A DNA stretch of 35,073 nucleotides from Chlamydiales bacterium. GTDB lineage: Bacteria > Chlamydiota > Chlamydiia > Chlamydiales > Rhabdochlamydiaceae. The notes beneath the pieces were generated by a model. That model was given only the letters and a program-made list of their open reading frames with translations. It ran no database searches and was not told the DNA's origin. This document shows positions 10,149 through 30,232 of this stretch, piece after piece. A program made the position numbers and the translations under genes. Numbering within the stretch: the first letter of the stretch is position 1; each line of letters begins with the position of its first letter. The stretch spans positions 1 through 35,073 of the forward strand of contig JAITFW010000042.1 of the NCBI GenBank assembly GCA_031281085.1, given 5' to 3'.

Positions 10149-10587
10149 AGATAAGCTTTTGCTTATTGACAAAATGCGTGGCGTTGCTATTCAAGCAACG
10201 CCTGAAGAAAAAATCAGACAAAAACTATTGAATCTTCTAATCGAAGAACTCTTTTTCCCTAAGGAATATGTCGTTGTGGAAAAGGCGCTTAGTGAGCTAC
10301 CCCACCTTCAAGGAAAGCGTGTACCAAAAAGGCGTCTTGATGTTTTATGCTATTTTCCTATGCACGACCAGCTTCTACCTTTATTGCTGATTGAATGTAA
10401 AAGAAGTGGAGGGATAAAACAAGCTTTAAACCAGGTAAGTGGATATAATTATTGGGTAGGAGCTCCCTTTGTCGCTGTAGCAAATCAAGAATGTATTTTA
10501 TTTAAATATTTGGATATAGCTTCAAATGAAATGGTTGTAAAAGAAGGTTTACCTTCGTACCAGGATTTAGTCGCATGTTGCAAATAG
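10126..10587 (+). CDS. HsdR N-terminal-like (PD-(D/E)xK fold) protein
   Basis: The 153-residue product matches the small stand-alone proteins annotated as type I restriction enzyme HsdR N-terminal domain (HSDR_N_2). Typical parts are TPEEKIRQKLLNLLIEEL, then KRRLDVLCYF with the active-site-type Asp, and LLLIECKRSGG with the ECK of a PD-(D/E)xK nuclease core, followed by QVSGYNYWVGAPFVAVAN. No helicase, HsdS or HsdM is next to it, so it is not a restriction system as such. Its role is unknown. I chose ATG 10126 over 10117 because AAGGATGG is then correctly spaced. The start overlaps hpf and the end overlaps the next gene by 13 bases, so translation is probably coupled. Confidence 0.78.
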   Translation: MASFDPNRDKLLLIDKMRGVAIQATPEEKIRQKLLNLLIEELFFPKEYVVVEKALSELPHLQGKRVPKRRLDVLCYFPMHDQLLPLLLIECKRSGGIKQALNQVSGYNYWVGAPFVAVANQECILFKYLDIASNEMVVKEGLPSYQDLVACCK

Positions 10588-12080
10588 TAAATAATCTGGA
10601 TCATTTAGAATCTGATGATACGGATGTTTTATCTGTATTTGGATTATCTCTACTTTCTCGTTTAGATAAATGGCTTTTAGAAAATCCCAAAAGATTCCTA
10701 GTTTGTATTGAAAAGGATCTGCAGACTTTTTTACAAGCTCAAGCTCATTTGCAAAATCCACAGATTAGATTGTATCATTGGGATTCCAATGTGAATTTAT
10801 GTCATAGAATGGTTTGGGAGTTTTGTCTTTTGCGTTTGACTCAAGTAGCTATAGATGAAGAAGAGCGTATTTTCTCCAAAATTCTTGAAGAAATGCATGT
10901 TCAAGTACACCTCTTGATTTCTGATTTTCGCGACTTAGGAGAACTTATCCTAGCTAACTTATTACAAAATACAAACCAAATGCCAATATCTCTTCTTGGG
11001 GAATCTTTAAAAAATTGCTGTCGTAATATACCTGCAATTATTTGTGGAGCAGGACCATCCTTAGATGGACAAATACCCATGCTTGTTCAAGCACAAGAGA
11101 AGGCTTTGTTATTTGGCGCAGGTTCTGCTATGTGTGCTTTGGAGACCCAAGGAGTTTACCCCCATTTTGGGGTCGCTTTTGATCCAGATCCTCCTCCTCA
11201 TCGATATTTAACCCAAATAGGCTATGAAACGCCTTATTTTTATCAGTCTAGGATCTCATCTAGACAGCTTGCTTCTTTACATGGCCAAAAACTATGGATG
11301 CCTGATTCAGATAATTACCCTTTAGAAAAATGGATTTATCAAGAGCTAGGTTTGAATTACCCATTCATGGATAGTGGGTTTACATCAGCTAATTTTTGTG
11401 CATTGATTGCGGCGCATTTAGGATGTAACCCCATTATCTGTGTAGGGATGGACTTTTGTTCTTCAAGCAATCGAGCCTATGCAGCAAGTATGCAAGCAGA
11501 TCAAGGGAATTGGGTGGAGTGTATGAATGCAAAAAAGGAAAAGAGAATCTCAAAACCAGATTGGCTAGCAAGTGCTTCTTGGTTAGATCAATTTGCTGAA
11601 AAAAATCAAGGGATCGAATGGATCTATACGGACCGAGAATCCATGACTTTAGAACATGTCAAATACCTTCCTTTGGAGCAAATTTCATGGCCAAGTGCTT
11701 TTGATACCCTCTCTTTTAGTTATGTGTTAACAGCTCAGGCAGCTAGGTCTGGAATTACCCAAGAAAGCGTAAGAGCGGTTTTGCATAGATTGGGTAATAG
11801 TTTTATAGAAGCGCTTGATCTGTGCAATCAATTACTAAAACTATGGGAGAAGCATTATCCGCGTTCTATTTTGGAAACAGGAGAACTTGCTCTATTAGAA
11901 TTTGATTTAGCACAAAACATTTGCGTACAGAAGCTTTTATTGCCGCTTTGGGAAATTTGGAAATGGCCTATTTTGAGACGAGAAGAGCATATTCCAACAA
12001 GAACTTTGCATCGGCATATATTTTTTAAAAAAGCAGTTGAAATCCATTTGTCTACTTTCAAGAGTTTAAAAATATGTTAA
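10575..12080 (+). CDS. DUF115 / MptE-like protein (first copy)
   Basis: This 501-residue protein contains a DUF115 core (6-hydroxymethylpterin diphosphokinase MptE-like; the fold also found in Maf glycosyltransferases). The key motif PAIICGAGPSLDG is at about 153-165. It is followed by LFGAGSAMCALETQGVYPHFGVAFDPDP and later by SGFTSANFCALIAAHLGCNPIICVGMDFC, the conserved GxD segment. The first 150 residues are not recognisable. In flagellated bacteria Maf proteins transfer nonulosonic sugars to flagellin; in archaea MptE makes a pterin precursor. Neither use is proven here. It overlaps both neighbours (13 bases with the nuclease-fold gene, 7 with the MORN gene) and has a paralogue two genes downstream. 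Confidence 0.82.
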   Translation: MLQIVNNLDHLESDDTDVLSVFGLSLLSRLDKWLLENPKRFLVCIEKDLQTFLQAQAHLQNPQIRLYHWDSNVNLCHRMVWEFCLLRLTQVAIDEEERIFSKILEEMHVQVHLLISDFRDLGELILANLLQNTNQMPISLLGESLKNCCRNIPAIICGAGPSLDGQIPMLVQAQEKALLFGAGSAMCALETQGVYPHFGVAFDPDPPPHRYLTQIGYETPYFYQSRISSRQLASLHGQKLWMPDSDNYPLEKWIYQELGLNYPFMDSGFTSANFCALIAAHLGCNPIICVGMDFCSSSNRAYAASMQADQGNWVECMNAKKEKRISKPDWLASASWLDQFAEKNQGIEWIYTDRESMTLEHVKYLPLEQISWPSAFDTLSFSYVLTAQAARSGITQESVRAVLHRLGNSFIEALDLCNQLLKLWEKHYPRSILETGELALLEFDLAQNICVQKLLLPLWEIWKWPILRREEHIPTRTLHRHIFFKKAVEIHLSTFKSLKIC

Positions 12081-12901
12081 AAGAAAATTATGTGTTCACT
12101 CAAGAGAAGTTAATGATATACGATGAAGAACTGGGATTGGATATTCAATATGAGCATTTCTGTCCTTATCTTCCTCCATCTCTTGAATCACCGAATCTAG
12201 TTCTCACAAATACTCAGGCTTACTTGATCCATGAAGGTAAACAACAAGGAGAGTGTCGTTGGTTTTTTGAAGATAGAACCTGTCAAGCAATTTTGTTTTA
12301 CGATCAAGGTCTTTTACACGGACCTTCTACTTTTTTTCATCCTCAAGGGCAAATTTTAACAAAGAGCTGGTACTACTTGGGTAAAAAAATAGGGAAAACG
12401 CGCTATTTTTACTCTTCTCAGAAACCAGCGAGTATACAGCGATTTATAGATGGGAAACCTGAAGGGTTGCAGGAGTACTTCTACGAAACAGGTGGTATTA
12501 AAAGCCACATTCCTTACCGCTTGCATCAATTAGATGGGCAGGTGCGTCTCTTTTGGGGATCAGGGTTGCTGAAGAGATCCATCGATTATCAACAGGGACA
12601 AAAACATGGCTGGGATCGACTTTGGAATGAGGAGCAGGTTCTTATAGACGAAGGTTGTTATGAAAAGGGAGAACCTATAGGAGTGCATCGCCATTTTTTC
12701 TGTAATCAGGTTTTGCGCGAGGAAAAAGTTTTTCATACGCCAAAGCGTTACGATTGTAAACGTTGGGATCAGAAAGGGCAGTTAATACTAGAAGGGGTTT
12801 ATATATCTGATAGCAATTATATAGAAAAAACCTACCATAATGCGCAAATGACTGCTTCAAAAGAGGGGAGATGGGATGGGAAAAAGCTTTGTTGGAAATA
12901 G
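12074..12901 (+). CDS. MORN_2 / YwqK-like repeat protein
   Basis: The 275-residue protein consists largely of repeated units of the type G-x-x-x-G-x-x-x-x-(F/Y)-(F/Y)...G, which are MORN_2 (YwqK-type) repeats. Examples are GKQQGECRWFFEDR, GLLHGPSTFFHPQGQI, GKPEGLQEYFYETGGI, GQKHGWDRLW and GEPIGVHRHFF. There are about seven units over residues 55-230. There is no signal peptide. MORN_2 proteins act as binding scaffolds or are of unknown function; some are annotated as antitoxins of YwqK type, which is not a reliable guide here. It lies between two DUF115 genes and overlaps both (7 bases and 26 bases), so the three products are probably made together. A partner or substrate role for the DUF115 proteins is inference. 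Confidence 0.78.
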   Translation: MLKENYVFTQEKLMIYDEELGLDIQYEHFCPYLPPSLESPNLVLTNTQAYLIHEGKQQGECRWFFEDRTCQAILFYDQGLLHGPSTFFHPQGQILTKSWYYLGKKIGKTRYFYSSQKPASIQRFIDGKPEGLQEYFYETGGIKSHIPYRLHQLDGQVRLFWGSGLLKRSIDYQQGQKHGWDRLWNEEQVLIDEGCYEKGEPIGVHRHFFCNQVLREEKVFHTPKRYDCKRWDQKGQLILEGVYISDSNYIEKTYHNAQMTASKEGRWDGKKLCWK

Positions 12902-14585
12902 TTCTTTAGATCTTTTAAGTGAAAGGTATCCAGAGCTTGTTTTTTTATTGAACTTCTCCAGCCCTTGTGAACCTTTATCTGAAGAGGAATTCATTCCAGA
13001 GTTTAGAGATGTTGAGGTTTTATATATTTATGGGATTACTGGGTCTAGTGCTTATCCTAGTTTAAAAAAGTGGGTTTTAGAAAAAAAAACGAGAAGAGTG
13101 GTCTTCTTAGAGGATTCGCTTCATGCAATAGAGAGCTTTTTATCTTTTATTTACAGTAAGCAAATCCTTCAAGATAGTCAAATGTCTCTATCCTATCTAG
13201 AAGAGCCTTATGCGAAAAAATTAGAAGAGATCGTATCTCATTATCCAGTAGAACATATTTTTATCCAAGCAACTCACTCTTATCGTAAAAAACCTCAATT
13301 TGAACAGTTGTGCTTACAACTCTTAAGGATTACAACTGTTGTACATGCAAGCACAACAGAGATTTTAAAGTCTCATCACATATTAGCAAATCTCATGAGG
13401 AATGTGTCTAGATGGCCTTATTCCTTTTTAGCTAATCGATTTCAAGGGCAGTTTGTAAATGTCCCTGCAATTATTTGTGGAGCAGGTCCTTCTTTATTAG
13501 ACGCAATAGGCTCTTTGAAGAGTCTAAGCGATCGGGCGCTGATTCTAGCAGGAGGATCAGCCATTGCTGCTTTGAGCAATCAAGGTGTGATTCCACATTT
13601 AAATGTAGTAGCTGATCCTAATTTTGAAGAATTTGAAAGACTAAAAACAGCATCTGCATATGAAGCACCGCTTATTTATGCAACCAGAGTGCATCCAGAT
13701 ATTTGGAATACGTGTAATGGGCAGATGGGGTATCTTGTTTCTGATACAGGAGGTGCTTGCGAAAAGTATTTTGAAAATCTGCTTGGAATAGATCATCAAG
13801 CAGTGGGACCTGATCTAGGGATAGAGGCCTTATCTGTAACTACCCTTAGCCTAGCCCTGGCTGTAGAAATGGGTTGTCATCCTATTGTTTTTGTTGGGGT
13901 AGATCTATCTTATACCGGTATGCAAAGATATGCAGAAAAAGTGATCTCTTATTCGGTTATTGATCCTAAAACACTAGAAAAGAATACGCAAGCCTCAGAA
14001 AAGCTTTTGCGTCGAAAGAATATTCAAGGAGAGCTTGTTTATACTACGGTAAAGTGGATCATGGAGTCAGAATGCATAGCTGCTTTTGTTAAAAAACATA
14101 CAAATTGCCGATTTATCAATGCAACGAGTGGGCTTGGGTTTGAAGGTGTAGAAAACTCTTCATTAGAAAAGATTGCTATGGATTGGAAACACATCGATTT
14201 ATACGCTGCTATTCATCAAAAAATGCAACTCTATCAATTAGACCCCAATCTTAGGAAAACCATTGCGTCTGAAAAGAAAAAACTTCGTTTAAGTGTTTTG
14301 CGCTTGCAAGAGATGACGTTACACATGTTAAGAATCATTGCCGAAGCTTTTACACAGGAAGTAAGTGTCCCCACTGCTAACATGATTTTATTGGAATTTG
14401 ATTTTCAAGAAGAACTTGCTTTAAATGCTTTATTTCCTTTTTTAGATTTAACGCTTGACCATCTATTAGATCCTTGTGGGAAACGAAAGAAAAGTGATAA
14501 AGAAATGCTTAAACATTTTTTAAAAAAGTATACCAGTTGGAAAGAAGTTTTAGAATATGTGGTTGAGCAAAATCTGATAGGGTAA
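12876..14585 (+). CDS. DUF115 / MptE-like protein (second copy)
   Basis: A 569-residue paralogue of the protein encoded at 10575-12080. The DUF115 core starts with VPAIICGAGPSLLD at about 197-210 and continues with LAGGSAIAALSNQGVIPHLNVVADPNFEE. Later it shows TTLSLALAVEMGCHPIVFVGVDLSYTG. Unlike the first copy it keeps an extended region after the core (AEKVISYSVIDPKTLEK onward) with a lysine-rich helical segment. The N-terminal 190 residues are not recognised. The ATG is preceded by GAGGGGAG. The pairing of two divergent copies suggests different acceptors or a heteromer (inference). The exact reaction, glycosyl transfer or pterin-type diphosphate transfer, cannot be decided from sequence. 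Confidence 0.82.
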   Translation: MGKSFVGNSSLDLLSERYPELVFLLNFSSPCEPLSEEEFIPEFRDVEVLYIYGITGSSAYPSLKKWVLEKKTRRVVFLEDSLHAIESFLSFIYSKQILQDSQMSLSYLEEPYAKKLEEIVSHYPVEHIFIQATHSYRKKPQFEQLCLQLLRITTVVHASTTEILKSHHILANLMRNVSRWPYSFLANRFQGQFVNVPAIICGAGPSLLDAIGSLKSLSDRALILAGGSAIAALSNQGVIPHLNVVADPNFEEFERLKTASAYEAPLIYATRVHPDIWNTCNGQMGYLVSDTGGACEKYFENLLGIDHQAVGPDLGIEALSVTTLSLALAVEMGCHPIVFVGVDLSYTGMQRYAEKVISYSVIDPKTLEKNTQASEKLLRRKNIQGELVYTTVKWIMESECIAAFVKKHTNCRFINATSGLGFEGVENSSLEKIAMDWKHIDLYAAIHQKMQLYQLDPNLRKTIASEKKKLRLSVLRLQEMTLHMLRIIAEAFTQEVSVPTANMILLEFDFQEELALNALFPFLDLTLDHLLDPCGKRKKSDKEMLKHFLKKYTSWKEVLEYVVEQNLIG

Positions 14586-20810: not shown

Positions 20811-21590
20811 TTAAATGATACTGGCGTTCAAGTTAAGAGATTCTGCCTCATAGTCTACTTTAGCTAATATAAGTCCGTGTGCAGGTGCAGTGCGTCCTGC
20901 TTGTCTTCGATCTTTTGCTTGAAAAATAGTGGGGAGCCTTTCTAACTCTATTTTTCCTGCACAGATATCAAGCAATGTACCAACGATATTACGAACCATT
21001 TTGTATAAAAAACCATTTGCTTCCAACTCTAAGCGGATATACTCTTCTTGTTGCAAGATGGATAAGCGTCTAAGACTTCGCACTGCATTTTTTGCAGCAG
21101 ACCCTGTAGTAGCTTCATTTGCAAAAGAAGTAAAATCATGAGTACCTATAAAAAATTTTGCTGCTTGTGTTAATGTATTTAAGGACACAGGATGAGGAAC
21201 TCTGTAGGCATAGAAGCAATTAAAAGGATCCTTAACAGGGCTTACATATAAATAGTAATGGTACACTTTGCCTATTGCGCTATAGCGTGCATGGAAGTGA
21301 AGAGGGGCTTTTTCGATATTCAATACTCTAATGTCTGGTGGAAGCAAGCCATTCAATGATTTAAGTAAACGAGAAAATTCAAAAGAAGTTGTTGTTTTAA
21401 AATGCGCAATTTGCCCTATTGCATGCACACCTGCGTCTGTACGCCCAGATCCTATAACTTGAATGGAGTCACGTAGAATAATGGATAAATATTTTTCTAA
21501 CAGCACCTGAATAGATATACCGTTTTTTTGTATTTGCCAGCCTGAGTAACACGTTCCCTCGTAAGCAATGCATAGTTTATAGTTAAGCAT
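20811..21590 (-). CDS. truA: tRNA pseudouridine synthase A
   Basis: TruA makes pseudouridine at positions 38-40 of the tRNA anticodon stem-loop. The 259-residue protein has the family motif GSGRTDAGVHAIGQ with catalytic Asp52, ARYSAIGKVYHYYLY, and the C-terminal FLYKMVRNIVGTLLDICAGK. Length is typical. Its ATG overlaps the ispD stop by one base (TAATG), so the two are translationally coupled. This gene pair is also adjacent in C. trachomatis (CT463-CT462, from memory). Confidence 0.95.
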   Translation of the reverse strand: MLNYKLCIAYEGTCYSGWQIQKNGISIQVLLEKYLSIILRDSIQVIGSGRTDAGVHAIGQIAHFKTTTSFEFSRLLKSLNGLLPPDIRVLNIEKAPLHFHARYSAIGKVYHYYLYVSPVKDPFNCFYAYRVPHPVSLNTLTQAAKFFIGTHDFTSFANEATTGSAAKNAVRSLRRLSILQQEEYIRLELEANGFLYKMVRNIVGTLLDICAGKIELERLPTIFQAKDRRQAGRTAPAHGLILAKVDYEAESLNLNASII

Positions 21591-22261
21591 TATTTTAGAA
21601 AGCTTTGTGCTAATTGCAGGTCTTCGGGATGAGTAATTTTTATATTTGAGGATTTGCCTGAAACGAGCTTAACCATATGACCTATTAATTCTATGGCAGA
21701 AACATCATCTGTAATGTCTATTTTCTTTTTTTCTGCTTCAAGAAGCCCTTTCTTCAGTAGATCTAGTGCAATCACTTGTGGTGTTAGGGTTTCTCTAAGC
21801 ATGTCCCGATTTAGAGTTTGTCTGACAAAACCAGTAGGATCTATTTCTTTAACGGTATTTTTAGCAGGCATGGCCAAAGCTGCAGCTTTATGAATCAGCG
21901 CTTGTTCGATCACTTTTTTTAAATCTTCTAATTGTAGAAAAGGACGAGCAGCATCATGAATGCAGACAAAAGAACCTTTTGTGATTTGTGCTAAGCCATT
22001 AGCTACAGAATCTTGTCTTCTAAACCCTGGGTTAGCAAAACCAATTTTCAAGTGAGTTTTAGAGGTAAATAAGCATCGATAAAATTCCTCACAAACCACA
22101 ATGATCTCTTTAATGAGATCGGATTTTGCTAAAAGCTCAAAGCTATGTAAGACCAGTGGTTTTGAGCCTAGAGGCAAAAATTGTTTGGGTATGGCAGTTT
22201 TAAAGCGAGTACCTTTTCCACCGGCGAGCAAAATAGCCGAAATAAGAGGAGTAGAAGACAT
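21590..22261 (-). CDS. ispD: 2-C-methyl-D-erythritol 4-phosphate cytidylyltransferase
   Basis: IspD joins CTP and MEP in the non-mevalonate isoprenoid pathway. The 223-residue protein starts with the nucleotide-binding AILLAGGKGTRFKTAIPKQF and has FVCIHDAARPF and AMPAKNTVKEID. It ends with DDVSAIELIGHMVKLVSGKS and NIKITHPEDL, the complete family signature. It is transcribed away from the SWIB gene terminator and coupled to truA. Confidence 0.95.
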   Translation of the reverse strand: MSSTPLISAILLAGGKGTRFKTAIPKQFLPLGSKPLVLHSFELLAKSDLIKEIIVVCEEFYRCLFTSKTHLKIGFANPGFRRQDSVANGLAQITKGSFVCIHDAARPFLQLEDLKKVIEQALIHKAAALAMPAKNTVKEIDPTGFVRQTLNRDMLRETLTPQVIALDLLKKGLLEAEKKKIDITDDVSAIELIGHMVKLVSGKSSNIKITHPEDLQLAQSFLK

Positions 22262-22320: not shown

Positions 22321-22581
22321 TTAACTTTTAAGATGTTTGCTTACAACTTTTGGCATTTCAAACATGTCAATGGATTTTTTACTACCAAAAACTTTGGCGA
22401 GTTTTTCATCTGGATTAATATTACGTTTATTTTTAGTATCTTGGCATTTGTGTTTTTTAATGTATTCCCACAATTTTTTTGTCACTTCAGTCCGAGCCAT
22501 TGGACCTTTGCCGACAACTGCAGTTAATTCATCGCTAATCTGCAGTTCTTGCATAAATTTAGATTCTTTCTTTTTTGCCAT
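22321..22581 (-). CDS. SWIB/MDM2-domain protein
   Basis: This 86-residue basic protein consists of a SWIB domain: MQELQISDELTAVVGKGPMARTEVTKKLWEYIKKHKCQD followed by NIKNPDEKL-type sequence and DMFEMPKVVSKHL. SWIB domains are rare in bacteria but well known in Chlamydiae, where CT460 is the homologue and is presumed to act in chromatin or topoisomerase-associated functions. The frame extends 13 codons upstream, but the ATG at 22581 has AAGGAGAAGG directly before it. The position beside ispD-truA is conserved with Chlamydia. Confidence 0.92.
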   Translation of the reverse strand: MAKKKESKFMQELQISDELTAVVGKGPMARTEVTKKLWEYIKKHKCQDTKNKRNINPDEKLAKVFGSKKSIDMFEMPKVVSKHLKS

Positions 22582-22671
22582 TTCCTTCTCCTTAATCGAA
22601 ATGATTGTAATTACCCACAATTGCTTTTTTTAGGAAAAACTGTGTTTAATTTTTCTATCCTATATAACCTT

Positions 22672-22997
22672 ATGAAAACCACATCGTATCACGATTTTTC
22701 TATAAACCCCTATGGAAAAACCAAAGAACGAGAACTTTGGATAGCTAATTCGAGGGTTTTCTATTCCCCCTAGAAGGACATGTTGTATCTCTAGAGGGAA
22801 TTTATAGTCAAAAAAAATCGCTTTATGAAAACTCCACAAGGATAAGATTCTCGTTTCTTTTTTTTCAACTAATTGTGAGTAAATGAGTTGAAAATTTCTC
22901 TGTAAAATCATTTTTGCCTTTAAAAGATCGCTTGCAATTAGAACTAGATCATGGCAATTTGATCTTGTCCCTTAATTTATGGCTCATTTTATTATAG
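22672..22997 (+). pseudogene. Decayed ORF of unknown family before the UGP3-like gene
   Basis: ATG 22672 opens a frame reading MKTTSYHDFSINPYGKTKER and onwards to FYSP, ending at a TAG right after a run of five C (22766-22770). With one more base in that run the frame continues as LEGHVVSLEGIYSQKKSLYE to a hydrophobic FSFLFFQLIVSK, meets a TGA at 22884, and then reads on in the same frame for 36 codons to a TAG at 22995. One frameshift and one stop in an otherwise protein-like frame suggest a recently broken gene of about 108 codons. It overlaps the start of the next gene by 19 bases. I do not recognise the family. Confidence 0.4.
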
Positions 22998-25078
22998 CAA
23001 TGATAGCAGACCGAGAGATTTTTTTTGTTCTAGCAAATAAACTTAGCTCTTGTAAAAGCGACCAAGAGCGCTTAAGGTTATTAGAAAATCCTCTTCCGAA
23101 AGCAATCGATTTACCCTTAAGTATAAAGGATCAGCTGATCTTGAAGTCCATTGTCGTGATTCATCAAGATCATCTTCTTTATCCATTTGACAAAAATCAC
23201 ATAAAAAATATTTTAAATGACCTCTATCCTGTTGAATCTTTTTACCAGTCCATTGGGGGAATAGTTGGCTATCATGCCATGATGTTATCGTTATTTGCAA
23301 ATCATACTTTATCTCATGAATGTAAGAGCTATGAGCAACCAGAAGGAATTAATATAGCACTAGAGGATCCTTCAACTTGTAAGTATATTTTAGAAGGTCT
23401 TTATGCACTTCCTTATTTGGCAGAGATTTATCCTGTAGGAGGGTCTGCTGATCGATTGCAGTTAATGGACGCAACAACGCATTCTTCTCTTCCTGCTGCA
23501 AAACTTGAGCTTTGTGGTAGAAGCTTATTAGAAGGGTTAATTCGCGATCTTCAAGCAAAAGAGTATCTCTACTTTAAACTATTTGGTAAACAGCTCACAA
23601 CACCTATTGCTATGATGACCTCTGAAGAAAAAAACAATCATCTTCATATTGTATCCATCTGTGAACAAAATAAGTGGTTTGGACGTTCTAAGGCTTGTTT
23701 TCGGTTTTTTCAACAACCTCTTGTGCCTGCATTAAACGCCCAGGGGAAGTGGTTACAAACGCAAAATAGTCGCATTTTAAGAAAACCAGGCGGACACGGA
23801 ATGCTGTGGAAAACAGCCATTGAGCAAAAGATCTTTGCTTGGCTTACCTCTCAAGGATATACTAAGATTTTAATTCGGCAGATTAACAATCCAGTAGCTT
23901 CTGTGGATTATGGGTTACTTGCATTTTGTGGGATTGGCTATCAAAAAAATAAACAATTTGGCTTTGCTTCTTGTTTGCGTTTATTAGAGGCTGCAGAGGG
24001 GATTAATGTGCTCTGTATAAATGAAAAAAAACAATATTGTCTAACAAACATTGAATATTGCGATCTTGAAAAATACCAAATGAAAGATTTTCCTTTGAAA
24101 GAGGGGAGTTCTTATTCACGTTTTTTTTCCAATACAAATATTTTATTCGCTGATGTAAAAGCCATTGAAGAAGTTGCTAAAAAATGTCCTATTCCTGGAA
24201 TGCTTGTTAATCAGAAAAAAACCTGTTTTGTCAATGAAAAAGGGTATCTAGAAGAATGCGAAATCGCTAGACTGGAGTCAATGATGCAGAATATCGCTGA
24301 ATGCTTTTCTGCTTATCAAGTAGAAGAATTAGGCTCTTTTTTAAGCTATAATTTAAGACATAAAACCATTTCCACAGTGAAAAAAAAATCTACAAAAACA
24401 AGTTCTTTATTGGAGACACCAGAGGGATGTTTTTACGATATCTTATATAATGGATATGATCTGTTAAAAAATCGATGTGATTTTTCACTACCTGCATTCT
24501 CTTCTCATCAAGAGTACATGATTAAGGGGCCTTCTATTCTATTTCAATACCATCCTGCCCTAGGTCCTCTGTACACGATTATTGCTCAGAAGATCCAATC
24601 TGGTCACATAAGTTGGGGAAGTGAACTGCGTTTAGAAATAGCGGAGATAAAATTAGAAAATCTCTATTTAGATGGAGCACTTCATATTATTGCTGAGCAT
24701 GTAATCGGACATTATCTGGAAGATCGCCTAGTTTATTCCCAACAAGTCGGTAGATGTCGTTTAAGTAACGTTCGAATAAAAAACCGAGGGATTGACCGTA
24801 GCTCTTCTAATATCTATTGGAAGGATCAAATCTCTTACCATCAAAAATGCACAATCACTCTAAAAGGGAATTCTTATTTTATCGCTGAAAATGTCGAACT
24901 CATGGAAGAGATGCACATTGAAGTAGAAGATGGTGTTTGCCTACAAGCCTTTCAAGAAAAAGATCGAGTGATCTTCCAAAAAAGACTGATTCTTCCCTCT
25001 GAAGGCGTATGGGATTATAAGATAGAGAAAGATAGAATTGTCCTGGAAGAAACAGGTGCATTTAGTGAAAGCTTATAA
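22979..25078 (+). CDS. UDPGP-family nucleotidyltransferase, plastid UGP3-like
   Basis: This 699-residue protein belongs to the UDP-sugar/UDP-glucose pyrophosphorylase family. The nucleotide-binding signature is at about 149-175 (EIYPVGGSADRLQLMD, then LPAAKLELCGRSLLEGLIRD), followed by FGKQLTTPIAMMTSEEKNNH, the WFGRSKACFRFFQQPLVPAL segment and PGGHGMLWK at about 269-277. This order and wording closely resemble, from memory, plant chloroplast UGP3, which makes UDP-glucose for sulfolipid synthesis, more than GalU or GlmU. About 250 residues follow the catalytic part (from about 450) and look beta-rich, as in UGP3. No Shine-Dalgarno precedes ATG 22979 and a stop lies two codons upstream, so a later start such as Met8 is possible. 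The sugar substrate cannot be fixed from sequence. Confidence 0.8.
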   Translation: MAHFIIAMIADREIFFVLANKLSSCKSDQERLRLLENPLPKAIDLPLSIKDQLILKSIVVIHQDHLLYPFDKNHIKNILNDLYPVESFYQSIGGIVGYHAMMLSLFANHTLSHECKSYEQPEGINIALEDPSTCKYILEGLYALPYLAEIYPVGGSADRLQLMDATTHSSLPAAKLELCGRSLLEGLIRDLQAKEYLYFKLFGKQLTTPIAMMTSEEKNNHLHIVSICEQNKWFGRSKACFRFFQQPLVPALNAQGKWLQTQNSRILRKPGGHGMLWKTAIEQKIFAWLTSQGYTKILIRQINNPVASVDYGLLAFCGIGYQKNKQFGFASCLRLLEAAEGINVLCINEKKQYCLTNIEYCDLEKYQMKDFPLKEGSSYSRFFSNTNILFADVKAIEEVAKKCPIPGMLVNQKKTCFVNEKGYLEECEIARLESMMQNIAECFSAYQVEELGSFLSYNLRHKTISTVKKKSTKTSSLLETPEGCFYDILYNGYDLLKNRCDFSLPAFSSHQEYMIKGPSILFQYHPALGPLYTIIAQKIQSGHISWGSELRLEIAEIKLENLYLDGALHIIAEHVIGHYLEDRLVYSQQVGRCRLSNVRIKNRGIDRSSSNIYWKDQISYHQKCTITLKGNSYFIAENVELMEEMHIEVEDGVCLQAFQEKDRVIFQKRLILPSEGVWDYKIEKDRIVLEETGAFSESL

Positions 25079-25147: not shown

Positions 25148-25426
25148 TTAAGGGTGGTTTTGCCCTTTATTTTTGAAAAAAATCTGATAAATAGCCAAGC
25201 CAATACCAACAGTAGCAGTAATACCAAAAGCAAAACCAGAGAGTTTTGGATGTGCTTGTACTGTATTAGAAACAGCAGTAGGAATAACTCTTCTTGCAAT
25301 TTCACTCACCTTTTCACTCACCTTATTATAGCTCTTTCCAAGTAGATCTTTACTAAAACCATAAACGTTTGATGCTGCATTTGTAGTAGCAGTACGGACA
25401 GCACTGAAGAAACCTTGTATATTCAT
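25148..25426 (-). CDS. Small single-pass membrane protein, unknown
   Basis: I do not recognise this 92-residue protein. The N-terminal 60 residues are amphipathic and Ala/Ser/Val-rich (FFSAVRTATTNAASNVYGFS, then VSEKVSEIARRVI). The C-terminal part has one membrane segment (about 65-85, FAFGITATVGIGLAIYQIFF) and a short basic tail. The ATG has a strong AAGGAGA seven bases upstream and a terminator follows, so expression is likely. The form, a helical domain plus a C-terminal anchor, could suit a membrane-tethered or secreted effector-type protein, but that is only a possibility. Confidence 0.7.
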   Translation of the reverse strand: MNIQGFFSAVRTATTNAASNVYGFSKDLLGKSYNKVSEKVSEIARRVIPTAVSNTVQAHPKLSGFAFGITATVGIGLAIYQIFFKNKGQNHP

Positions 25427-26189: not shown

Positions 26190-27279
26190 ATGCGGGAGTC
26201 TGTACAAAATATGATTAAAGGAATTCAAAATCGTTTGGCACATATGTGGAGGTATCTTTGACTTGGAAGAAAAGGAAAAGAAAATTCTTCTTCTAGAAGA
26301 GAAAATGGGAGATTTAGGTTTTTGGGAGGACCAGAACCTAGCGCAAAAAATTCTTTCTGAAATTCATGATTTAAAAGCTTGGACGATTCCTTCTTGGCAA
26401 GTGAAGCAACGTTTTGAAAATGTGTATGAGTTGATCCTTGAGGTAGATCAAGAAGCTGAGCCAGAATTTTTTTACGAGTTAGAGCAAGAGCTTAAAGAAG
26501 TTGACAAGCAGCTCTCTGATTTAGAAATTCGTAAAATGTTGTCTGGAGAGTTAGATAAAAAAAACTGTTTTTTGACAATTAACGCTGGAGCAGGAGGCAC
26601 AGAATCTTGCGACTGGGTAGGCATGCTCTCTCGCATGTATCAGCGTTGGGCGAGTAAAAGGGGTTGGAAAACAGAGATTTTCGATTTTGTAGATGGAGAT
26701 GTTGCTGGATTAAAAAGTATTACTATTCGGTTGATCGGTTCATTTGCTTATGGTTATGCTAAGGCAGAACGTGGTGTTCATCGACTAGTACGCATTTCTC
26801 CTTTTGATAGTAATGCACGTCGTCATACCAGTTTTGCTTCCGTTGATATTACTCCTGAAATTGATGAGAAAATGGAGATAGAAATCAAAGAAGATCAATT
26901 ACAGATAGAGACTTATCGCGCTTCAGGAGCAGGGGGGCAGCATGTAAATAAAACCGATTCGGCTGTGCGTATGCGATATGCAGGGATCACAGTGAGTTGT
27001 CAAAAAGAGAGAAGTCAAGTGCAAAACCGCGAAACGTGTTTGAAGATGCTTAAGGCTAAATTATACGAAAAAGAATATTTAGAAAGAAAAGCAAAGTTAG
27101 AACAGATTTCAGGAGAAAAAAAAGAAATTGGTTTTGGAAGTCAAATTCGTAATTACATATTTCAACCTTATACTCTAGTAAAGGATACTCGAACAAAGTA
27201 TGAAGTGGGTAATGTGCAAGCTGTGCTCGATGGAGAGATAGATGGCTTTATTAATGCATATCTTCAAGAATTTGGGTAG
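26190..27279 (+). CDS. prfB: Peptide chain release factor 2 (programmed +1 frameshift)
   Basis: RF2 releases finished proteins at UGA and UAA codons. The gene is in two frames. 23 zero-frame codons from ATG 26190 (MRESVQNMIKGIQNRLAHMW, then RYL) end at TGA 26259-26261. Translation then shifts +1 at CTTTGAC and continues with DLEEKEKK for 339 more codons, giving 362 residues against 365 in E. coli. The main frame has the RF2 recognition motif SPF (VRISPFDSNARRHTSF) and the peptidyl-release motif GGQ (ASGAGGQHVNKTDSAV). GGAG at 26179-26182 fits as ribosome binding site for ATG 26190; ATG 26211 in the same frame is less well placed. Downstream gene order (GNAT, yebC) matches C. trachomatis CT459-CT457. 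Confidence 0.95.
26247..26262 (+). promoter_or_regulatory. RF2 autoregulatory +1 frameshift site
   Basis: TGGAGG, TAT and CTTTGAC form the classic prfB element: an internal Shine-Dalgarno-like GGAGG three bases before the CTT slip codon, the in-frame UGA and the C after it. When RF2 is scarce, UGA is read slowly and ribosomes slip into the +1 frame, raising RF2. The same layout (AGGGGG UAU CUU UGA C) is known from E. coli. Confidence 0.93.
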
Positions 27280-27282
27280 TCG

Positions 27283-27786
27283 ATGGCAGAGATAGAAGAA
27301 GAATTAGATATTAGATACACTCGTATTACGGATGAGACCTATTTACGCAATTGGCTTATGAATGCTAAATTGCAACATTTTCTTCCTGTGAGCAATGAAC
27401 AAGAAGTACATAACATGCTGCAGTGTTGGCTAGGATTTTGTCGTTATAGTGCAAGTCTTACCGCTATCCTAAATGGGACGCCTTGTGGAATAGCTACTTT
27501 ATTTTTAATGCCTTACCAAAAGGTTTCTCACTGCTGTTTATTTAAAATCATCGTGGATCCTATTCATCAAAATAAAGGAGTAGGTAATAGCTTATTAAAA
27601 AACATCATACATTTAGCAAAAGTGTATTTTAAATTGGAAGAGATTTACACAGAAGTAGTGGAAGACAATCCTTTGATTCATCTCCTTCGTAAATACGATT
27701 TTTATCAATTTGCTGAGCAAGAAGACTATATTAGAGAAAACGATCGATACTATGCACGCCTTTTATTTGGAATTTCATTGATATGA
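27283..27786 (+). CDS. GNAT-family N-acetyltransferase (first of a tandem pair)
   Basis: A 167-residue GNAT-fold protein, probably transferring an acetyl group from acetyl-CoA. The acetyl-CoA-binding motif A is LFKIIVDPIHQNKGVGNSLLKNII (Q-x-x-G-V-G). Motif B follows as YTEVVEDNPLIHLLRKYDFY. It starts three bases after prfB and overlaps the next gene by four bases (ATGA), so all are likely on one transcript. It is clearly paralogous to the next gene. Its motif A is close to the usual QxxGxG/A, so it may still be active. The acceptor is unknown. In C. trachomatis a single GNAT (CT458) sits here. Confidence 0.85.
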   Translation: MAEIEEELDIRYTRITDETYLRNWLMNAKLQHFLPVSNEQEVHNMLQCWLGFCRYSASLTAILNGTPCGIATLFLMPYQKVSHCCLFKIIVDPIHQNKGVGNSLLKNIIHLAKVYFKLEEIYTEVVEDNPLIHLLRKYDFYQFAEQEDYIRENDRYYARLLFGISLI

Positions 27787-28295
27787 ACGGGCAAAAAAAA
27801 ACTCTTTCTAATTTGAGCTTTCGTTTAACGGATCGCTCGGATGCTCCTTATTTAACCAAATGGTTTTCTGATTCTGAGGTTTTACGATGGTTCCCGATGC
27901 TTACGCAGCCAGAGGTAGCTGACGCTGTCAGAATTTGGATTGGCTATTCTCGCTTGGGTTCAGGGATAACAGTAGAGCATAATAACGTGCCTTGTGGAAT
28001 GGCAACGCTTTATATACAAGCTTATGAAAAGCTAAAACATACCTGCCTTTTTTCTATTATTATACAAAAAGATAAGAGAGGGTGTGGTGTAGGATGTTTG
28101 TTAATGGAAAAGTTAATGAAGTTGGCCCAAGAGAAATTTAAAATTAGCATTTTGCATCTAGAGGTCTACGAAGGTAATCCCGCCCGCAAAATGTATGCAA
28201 AATTGGGATTTATAGAATTTGGACGTCAAGAAAGGTTCATTAAGGAAAAAAATACATATCTTGCTAAAGTTTTTATGCAAAAAAAGCTGATCTAA
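27783..28295 (+). CDS. GNAT-family N-acetyltransferase (second of a tandem pair)
   Basis: A 170-residue paralogue of the preceding product. Motif A is LFSIIIQKDKRGCGVGCLLMEKLM (R-G-x-G-V-G) and motif B is LHLEVYEGNPARKMYAKLGFIEFG, a standard GNAT C-terminal half, better preserved than in the first copy. The N-terminal halves also align (a YLTKWFSDSEVLRWFP segment against YLRNWLMNAKLQHFLP, and CGMATLYIQAYEKLKHTCLF against CGIATLFLMPYQKVSHCCLF). The start overlaps the upstream stop by four bases and yebC starts nine bases after its stop. The acceptor substrate is unknown. Confidence 0.87.
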   Translation: MNGQKKTLSNLSFRLTDRSDAPYLTKWFSDSEVLRWFPMLTQPEVADAVRIWIGYSRLGSGITVEHNNVPCGMATLYIQAYEKLKHTCLFSIIIQKDKRGCGVGCLLMEKLMKLAQEKFKISILHLEVYEGNPARKMYAKLGFIEFGRQERFIKEKNTYLAKVFMQKKLI

Positions 28296-28304
28296 AGGAG
28301 AATT

Positions 28305-29021
28305 ATGGCAGGGCATAGCAAGTGGGCAAATATCAAACATCGTAAGGGAAAGGCAGACGCTATTAAAGGAAAGCTTTTTTCTCGTTTAACTAAAGAGATC
28401 ATTAGCGCTGTAAAACAAGGGGGAGCTGATCCTAAAGCGAATACTAAACTGCGAATGGTTTTACATAAAGCGCGCAGCGCCAATCTGCCTAATGAAAGCA
28501 TTGAACGCAACATTAAAAAAGCTACAAATGTTGCTCAGGCGGACTATAGTGAAATATCTTATGAGTTATATGGATATGCAGGTGTAGGTATGATTGTAGA
28601 AATTATGACAGATAATAAAAATCGAAGTGCTTCTGAAATGAGAATTGCCACTAATAAGAAAGGAGGCAGTATTGCAAATCCTGGCTCTGTAGCTTTTAAT
28701 TTTGAGCGTAAAGGAATGATTCAAGGCAAAAAAAATGTCAGTGAGGAAGAGCTTTTTGACCTTGTGACAGAAGCAGGAGCTGAAGATTTCGATTTAGAAG
28801 AAGGCTTTTGTATAATCACAACAGCCTCTGAACGATTATTTCAAGTAAAAGAGGCCTTGGAAAATCAAGGATTCATCTGTGAAGAAGCACAACTTCAAAT
28901 GGTTCCTAAAACATATATAGAATGCGATCAGGCAAATCAAAGATTAAATCTTGATTTGATCGAGTATCTAGAAGCGATAGATGACGTAGATGCTGTTTAT
29001 CACAATATGAAGTTGTTTTAG
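28305..29021 (+). CDS. yebC: YebC/PmpR family protein
   Basis: A full-length 238-residue member of the YebC/TACO1 family, starting with the invariant MAGHSKWANIKHRKGKAD. The three-domain layout is intact (RLTKEIISAVKQGG, GYAGVGMIVEIMTDNKNR and a C-terminal DVDAVYHNMKLF). Family members have been described as transcription regulators and, more recently, as ribosome-associated factors that help translate difficult sequences. AAGGAGAATT precedes the ATG. It ends the prfB transcript and its stop overlaps the convergent porin gene by four bases. Confidence 0.95.
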   Translation: MAGHSKWANIKHRKGKADAIKGKLFSRLTKEIISAVKQGGADPKANTKLRMVLHKARSANLPNESIERNIKKATNVAQADYSEISYELYGYAGVGMIVEIMTDNKNRSASEMRIATNKKGGSIANPGSVAFNFERKGMIQGKKNVSEEELFDLVTEAGAEDFDLEEGFCIITTASERLFQVKEALENQGFICEEAQLQMVPKTYIECDQANQRLNLDLIEYLEAIDDVDAVYHNMKLF

Positions 29022-30232
29022 AAGTCCATTGTGATTGTACTTGTTAAACCATGAAGATTTAAATCGTACATAGTGGTATTTTTAGGGGCAACGAAAAATG
29101 TATTATAATTCCACCAGAATTGCATTTCATAACCAGCTGAAACCCCTAAGTAGTATTTTTTGCAGAAACAAGAACCCCAGTCTAATCCTATAAAGCACTC
29201 TACTAGAGGTTTTAAAGTGCGGTAATGGTCATATTTACTGCCGCCTCCTAAAACTAAACTACCAGATGAATTAAATTCATTAGTATCGTTTCTAGTTTTC
29301 ATACTATTCCAAAGCACAGTTCCTGCAATTTTGGTTAAAATAGCAAAATTAGAACAGCTTAAATCCCATCTACTTTGCATTCCAAATCGAAGTCCTATAC
29401 CTTGGTTTCTATTCTTTAGAAATACGTTAGCTGAATTAAAACTGGATCTATTGATCCCGAAGTAAGAAGTATTTAATTTAGATGTTACCCAAGCCCCTTT
29501 TAACCCTGCATAAGGGCGAATTGCTAGATTGCGCCCAAGAAATAGACGCCTACCTAACTCTAAATCGACGGAATCGAAATGCAGATTCCAATGTGAACGA
29601 ATAGAACTAGATCCTAATATATTAAATCTTTCAAAAGGATCTAATAAGGAAGCGTTTAAAGTTTGACTTTTGGAACTCCAAGAGGAATGAGGCTGAGTAC
29701 GTAAACGAGTCCAATTGGCAAAAACATCCCAATAGTCATAGGATAGATTATAACCAAGACCTAGCTTAAAGCCACTTTCATATTTATAATCAATTTGCTC
29801 GATGGTTTCTTTAATTTGAAAAGCACCTTGTCGTTGTATGTTGGAAGTAACGCTCAAGCCTTCAATAGAACTATGCCAGTATAGATAAGCCGCTTCTAAG
29901 TAATAAGATTCAGTTGTTTCTATGCAGCCTTTAGCAGAAGGAGTAACATCTATACAAGGATCAAAGCTTTTTATTCTTTTTTCATCACAGCAATCAGGTT
30001 CACAGAAATCGATGTATACAGGTTCTTTGTATGGAGAAGATGTATTTGATTCCTGGTAGAGAAAAATGTCTTCAAATTCTTTTTTATTAAATAGAGATAG
30101 GCCTTTATTATCCCATCTGTTGAATACATTTGAGGTAGAAAAGCTAGATTCATGCGTTTTACATCCTAAAAGATAGACTAAAGCAACTATGCTTAACCCT
30201 AAATCGAACATTAAATGAGTATATCGTTTCAT
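29018..30232 (-). CDS. Lpg1974-type / MOMP-like outer membrane protein
   Basis: A predicted beta-barrel porin of 404 residues in the Lpg1974 family of pore-forming, MOMP-like proteins common in Simkania-type Chlamydiae. Recognisable pieces are EAAYLYWHSSIEGL, ESGFKLGLGYNLSYDYWDVFANWT, a HWNLHFDSVDLELGRRLFLG segment, IRPYAGLKGAWV and IGLRFGMQSRWDL. It ends on a barrel-type Phe (TITMDF). Alternating aromatic/polar strands support a barrel. The N-terminus MKRYTHLMFDLGLSIVALVY ends in LLGC, a lipobox-like site (Cys24), unusual for a porin. Acidic, Cys-containing sequence (FCEPDCCDEK) lies between signal and barrel. It has its own promoter at 30263-30291 and convergent overlap with yebC. Confidence 0.78.
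   Translation of the reverse strand: MKRYTHLMFDLGLSIVALVYLLGCKTHESSFSTSNVFNRWDNKGLSLFNKKEFEDIFLYQESNTSSPYKEPVYIDFCEPDCCDEKRIKSFDPCIDVTPSAKGCIETTESYYLEAAYLYWHSSIEGLSVTSNIQRQGAFQIKETIEQIDYKYESGFKLGLGYNLSYDYWDVFANWTRLRTQPHSSWSSKSQTLNASLLDPFERFNILGSSSIRSHWNLHFDSVDLELGRRLFLGRNLAIRPYAGLKGAWVTSKLNTSYFGINRSSFNSANVFLKNRNQGIGLRFGMQSRWDLSCSNFAILTKIAGTVLWNSMKTRNDTNEFNSSGSLVLGGGSKYDHYRTLKPLVECFIGLDWGSCFCKKYYLGVSAGYEMQFWWNYNTFFVAPKNTTMYDLNLHGLTSTITMDF

Follow-up and report, generated by a model that had tools for sequence, protein, structure and literature searches.

A gene for a UGP3-type UDP-sugar pyrophosphorylase lies on the forward strand at 22979..25078 of the window (the whole stretch of 35,073 nucleotides analysed here, from a Chlamydiales bacterium), and we consider it likely that its product is a UTP:glucose-1-phosphate uridylyltransferase which is ancestral and vertically inherited in the Chlamydiota and was deleted in a family of animal pathogens. 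The UGP3-type enzyme is genuine; environmental chlamydiae ordinarily have one, and its evolutionary setting is useful. The preliminary description of this DNA had placed the reading frame here and quoted from it the motifs VGGSADRL, FGKQLTTPIAMMTSEEKNNH, WFGRS...FRFFQQPLVPA and PGGHGMLWK; every one of these was read in the translation of the frame, which has 699 codons and 699 residues as listed. In two relatives of the same genus the protein begins at a methionine equivalent to residue 8 of the window frame, and the first residues of the predicted structure have a pLDDT near 50, so the real, conserved start is probably the ATG at 23000, giving 692 residues. No convincing ribosome-binding site was found upstream of either candidate start (22979 or 23000). 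Against the same two relatives the window protein has 86-88% amino-acid identity, with dN of 0.06-0.07 versus dS of 0.59-0.77 (Nei-Gojobori). Because dN/dS is thus about 0.08-0.11, the gene is maintained and under purifying selection.

The family assignment comes from two Pfam models. PF25441 ('UGP3-like, C-terminal hexapeptide repeats', Hexapep_UGP3_C) scores 156.6 bits against a curated cut-off of 27 over residues 539-690 (24593..25048, forward strand), in a part that is beta-rich in the structural model (542-692). PF01704 (UDPGP) scores 40.7 bits against a cut-off of 22 over residues 205-444 (23591..24310, forward strand), and the fold matches agree in placing a GT-A catalytic core there. 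The long C-terminal part and the UGP3-type identity that had been proposed from motifs alone are both borne out, the latter also by the separation from UAP-type proteins and the absence of GalU and GlmU described below. NCBIfam was searched with the window protein and no model matched, including TIGR01099 (GalU) and TIGR01173 (GlmU). An AlphaFold model was built from 18 chlamydial sequences (mean pLDDT 86.2, pTM 0.89). Among solved structures it is closest to the UAPs (Z to 32.1 over about 458 residues), followed by the USP of L. major (Z 30.1 over 521 residues, reaching part of the C-terminal domain), the eukaryotic UGPs (Z about 25) and GlmU (20.9). The predicted fold is therefore that of a UDP-sugar pyrophosphorylase and the family model is that of UGP3, but the predicted fold does not fix the sugar.

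As the core is closer to UAP and USP than to UGP1/2, in fold and in sequence, another UDP-sugar is possible. The protein could be a broad USP-like pyrophosphorylase acting on several sugar-1-phosphates (Glc, Gal, GlcA, Xyl), which would suit the USP match over most of the model. The sequence profile also aligns to MbUSP (positions 10-393) with a common RLExxMQ[DN] motif, a common GGxxxRL loop and a faint C-terminal match. However, the closest family model is that of UGP3 (USP models lying outside the comparison), and plant UGP3 is described as a chloroplast enzyme making UDP-glucose for sulfolipid (PMC5897459). We regard broad specificity as improbable, and UDP-glucose as the likely product.

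The active-site motifs separate the family from ordinary UAPs of the AGX type. The nucleotide loop YPVGGSADRL (residues 151-160, 23429..23458, forward strand) is the UGP3 form of the GGxGTRL loop. Its Y, P, G, G, D, R and L are invariant across 18 chlamydial UGP3 proteins, and the pattern P.GG..DR is present in 77 of 81 UGP3 proteins. The canonical GGxG[ST]RL..PKG, on the other hand, is found in none of the 81 UGP3 loci as against 12 of 12 UAP-type loci (11 chlamydial and one Lachnospira UDPGP), and the canonical loop lysine (PKG) is thus absent throughout the family. It follows that UGP3 proteins use a modified nucleotide loop and that an ordinary UAP is ruled out. Plant UGP3 (At3g56040 in Arabidopsis) probably has the same modified loop. 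Across the 18 divergent proteins the invariant or near-invariant elements are YPVGG..DRL, MTS, PGGHG, NN at 303-304, RLExxMQN and RxKTI...K. The last of these is RHKTISTVK in the window protein (residues 460-468, 24356..24382, forward strand), with R460, K462 and K468 invariant; by motif position it would be equivalent to RxxCFAPLK of the chlamydial UAP-type enzymes. A mechanism can be proposed on this basis. UTP would be held in the GT-A core on the PVGG(A/S)xDRL loop while the lysine motif close to the core's end would help to hold the phosphates. Glucose-1-phosphate would then attack the alpha-phosphate, so that pyrophosphate and UDP-glucose are formed. The hexapeptide domain at the C-terminus would close the protein, with a possible role in assembly or regulation.

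We searched 190 Chlamydiota genomes for the usual bacterial enzymes. No protein passed the GalU cut-off (TIGR01099, best 66 bits against 327) or that of the bifunctional GlmU (TIGR01173, best 78 bits against 367) in any of the 190. A GalU-like match at contig C81 was set aside as an RmlA-type thymidylyltransferase-like protein, judging from its sequence. Since no GalU passes the cut-off, UGP3 is the best candidate for the chlamydial supply of UDP-glucose. The other possibility named in the preliminary description, an ordinary UAP/GlmU-like or common bacterial pyrophosphorylase, was tested and is excluded, with GalU, GlmU and ordinary UAP all ruled out. A UDPGP protein over the cut-off is present in 185 of the 190 genomes, and most carry two. 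The second is typically about 380-490 residues long and UAP-like; a copy from family f3, a family without UGP3, matches solved UAPs at E 9e-46. The tree called for at the outset was run for its bacterial part, and in this quick tree UGP3 and the UAP-type proteins stand apart at a value of 100, flagged for long branches. PF25441 is absent from the UAP-type paralogues tested and from a Lachnospira UDPGP. From the two UDPGP clades and the absence of both GlmU and GalU we infer a division of labour, in which the eukaryote-like UAP-type enzyme would supply UDP-GlcNAc and UGP3 would replace the missing GalU beside it. In family f5 a GT9 (heptosyltransferase-like) domain is apparently joined to the UAP-type protein, the two making up a single ORF of 700-731 residues (L157:1216-3408, L158:633-2732).

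The same absence of GlmU could instead mean that UGP3 is the missing GlmU uridylyltransferase, supplying UDP-GlcNAc for peptidoglycan and lipid A. The UAPs do top the fold matches, and the assembly of the window's organism shows this one UDPGP protein only. But a separate canonical UAP-type gene is present in most Chlamydiota, the family without UGP3 among them, and its absence from the window's genome looks like a gap in the assembly. In a genome of the same genus this gene is found together with gpsA (identified by its sequence), and the corresponding region, gpsA included, lies beyond the point where contig C25 of the window's genome stops (the match ends at 28182, the contig at 28730). The gene is therefore likely to be missing through an assembly gap, and we hold a GlmU replacement to be very improbable. 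Returning to UDP-glucose as the product, its consumers were sought in the window's genome and none was secured. OtsA, over the cut-off in 14 of the 190 genomes, is absent there. GalE-like proteins, with none in family f3 and widespread elsewhere, are represented in the window's genus only by relatives below the cut-off. The frame of the glycogen synthase gene glgA (contig C89:8353-9671) is broken, the gene being split between two reading frames; a pseudogene and a mistake in the assembly are both conceivable.

The gene has a fixed place in a conserved block with the recurrent order HAD - truA - ispD - SWIB - UGP3 - prfB - GNAT - GNAT - yebC. In the window, truA (20811..21590, named by sequence and synteny), ispD (21590..22261; PF01128, 177.6 bits, and synteny) and the left neighbour, a SWIB-domain protein (22321..22620; PF02201), lie on the reverse strand. 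To the right on the forward strand are the main frame of prfB (26263..27279; TIGR00020, 467.5 bits, and synteny) and, at the end of the block, two GNAT acetyltransferases and yebC (27283..29021; sequence and synteny). Of 80 loci, 71 have SWIB beside UGP3; in six of the other nine the contig breaks off within 0.5 kb. Distances between UGP3 copies, taken over 38 loci, are correlated with the distances for prfB (r 0.62), truA (0.56) and yebC (0.59). The UGP3-neighbour correlations (0.56-0.62) may be set beside neighbour-neighbour values of 0.62-0.72, and UGP3 divergence thus tracks that of the block.

Some other features of the window may be mentioned here. Just 5′ of the prfB main frame at 26263 there is a classic RF2 programmed-frameshift signal (AGGTATCTTTGAC, within 26240-26270). 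Between UGP3 and prfB an ORF of 92 residues on the reverse strand (25148-25426) has 45-48% identity in relatives of the same genus, with its neighbours at about 85%; Pfam and NCBIfam were searched with it and gave no match. A MORN-repeat protein lies between two MptE-like (Maf-type) proteins at 10575-14585, in a bacterium where a flagellum is not expected. An outer-membrane protein at 29018-30232 (reverse strand) matches PF05150, the family of the Legionella major outer membrane protein, at 129.7 bits.

PF25441 was found in 148 of the 190 Chlamydiota genomes, whereas all 14 control genomes lack it. When 84,980 species were scanned, 119 relatives came up; the best 80 of these belong to chlamydiae, with mislabelled MAGs counted among them. 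Viral contigs were also scanned, with 16 pattern matches and no relative among them, and plasmids gave only a distant Lachnospira UDPGP. Public MAGs that carry the labels Verrucomicrobia, Acidobacteria or Aerophobetes (L036, L039, L044, L048, L052, L053 and L061) were rejected as other phyla and appear to be Chlamydiota, since their match coordinates are identical to those of genomes grouped in that phylum. Given the phylum-wide distribution, the fixed block position and the divergence in step with neighbouring genes, UGP3 is old, ancestral in the Chlamydiota and vertically inherited. These same three observations stand against the view that the window's chlamydia recently acquired the gene from a plant or green alga, for which the likeness to the chloroplast enzyme might speak, and we find such an acquisition scarcely credible.

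The vertically inherited gene has also been lost. No genome of family f3 carries PF25441, and this family, to judge by genomes of 1.0-1.4 Mb and one large genus, would be the Chlamydiaceae, the family of animal pathogens. In five f3 genomes the block is intact and UGP3 is gone, leaving only 306-473 bp between SWIB and prfB; a search of these five empty sites for a remnant gave only chance-level matches (E 0.08 or worse). UGP3 is also absent from the f16 and f19 genomes examined, so that there were either several losses or a single one in an ancestor of families f3, f16 and f19. Family f9 has a strongly diverged copy in the same block position, and in one f2 genome the copy is matched only up to residue 604. 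C. trachomatis takes up host UDP-glucose via SLC35D2 for use by its GlgA (PMC4829429), with which the absence of UGP3 in f3 fits; the gene would have been deleted in a family able to draw on the host. This is a specific gene loss that may underlie the dependence of Chlamydiaceae on host UDP-glucose. Host supply, known for C. trachomatis only, may not explain the loss in the other families without UGP3.

The kinship of chlamydial and plant UGP3 has already been published. A UGP3 homologue was named in Estrella lausannensis and Waddlia chondrophila, its kinship to plant UGP3 was stated, and it was proposed to make UDP-glucose feeding OtsA and the GlgE pathway (PMC7935935). Earlier, a table of 55 Plantae genes of chlamydial origin (Table 1 of PMC2376095) included a chloroplast protein that is given no name and has a nucleotide-diphospho-sugar transferase domain; this protein is probably UGP3. 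In the literature searched we found no bacterial UGP3 that had been characterised biochemically. What is new relative to that literature is the distribution of UGP3 over the phylum, its conserved block, the empty site and the split from the UAP-type paralogue. They make UGP3 a synteny-anchored case among the genes common to chlamydiae and plants. As it is old and vertical in chlamydiae, and is reported from both Arabidopsis and Chlamydomonas but as absent from red algae (PMC6325583), it allows a clean test of whether one transfer brought the gene to the green lineage. Our tentative proposal, for which we would claim somewhat less than an even chance, is that chloroplast UGP3 of the green lineage derives from the ancestral, block-held chlamydial gene and that the clean deletion of the latter in the animal-pathogen family marks a switch from making UDP-glucose to taking it.

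In comparison with known systems, the plant and green-algal UGP3 has the same UDPGP core and PF25441 C-terminus by Pfam domains, but its setting is the plastid whereas the window protein is bacterial. The Estrella and Waddlia homologue is likewise chlamydial, UGP3-like and not a GalU; it was however placed upstream of OtsA and GlgE, while the window's genome is without OtsA. The UAP/AGX-type enzymes, including the chlamydial paralogue, have the fold in common with the window protein (Z 32), but they keep GGxG[ST]RL..PKG, form a separate clade and are without PF25441. Finally, the L. major USP and MbUSP match the fold over most of its length and have the RLExxMQ motif, yet their identity with the window UGP3 is only about 14-17%.
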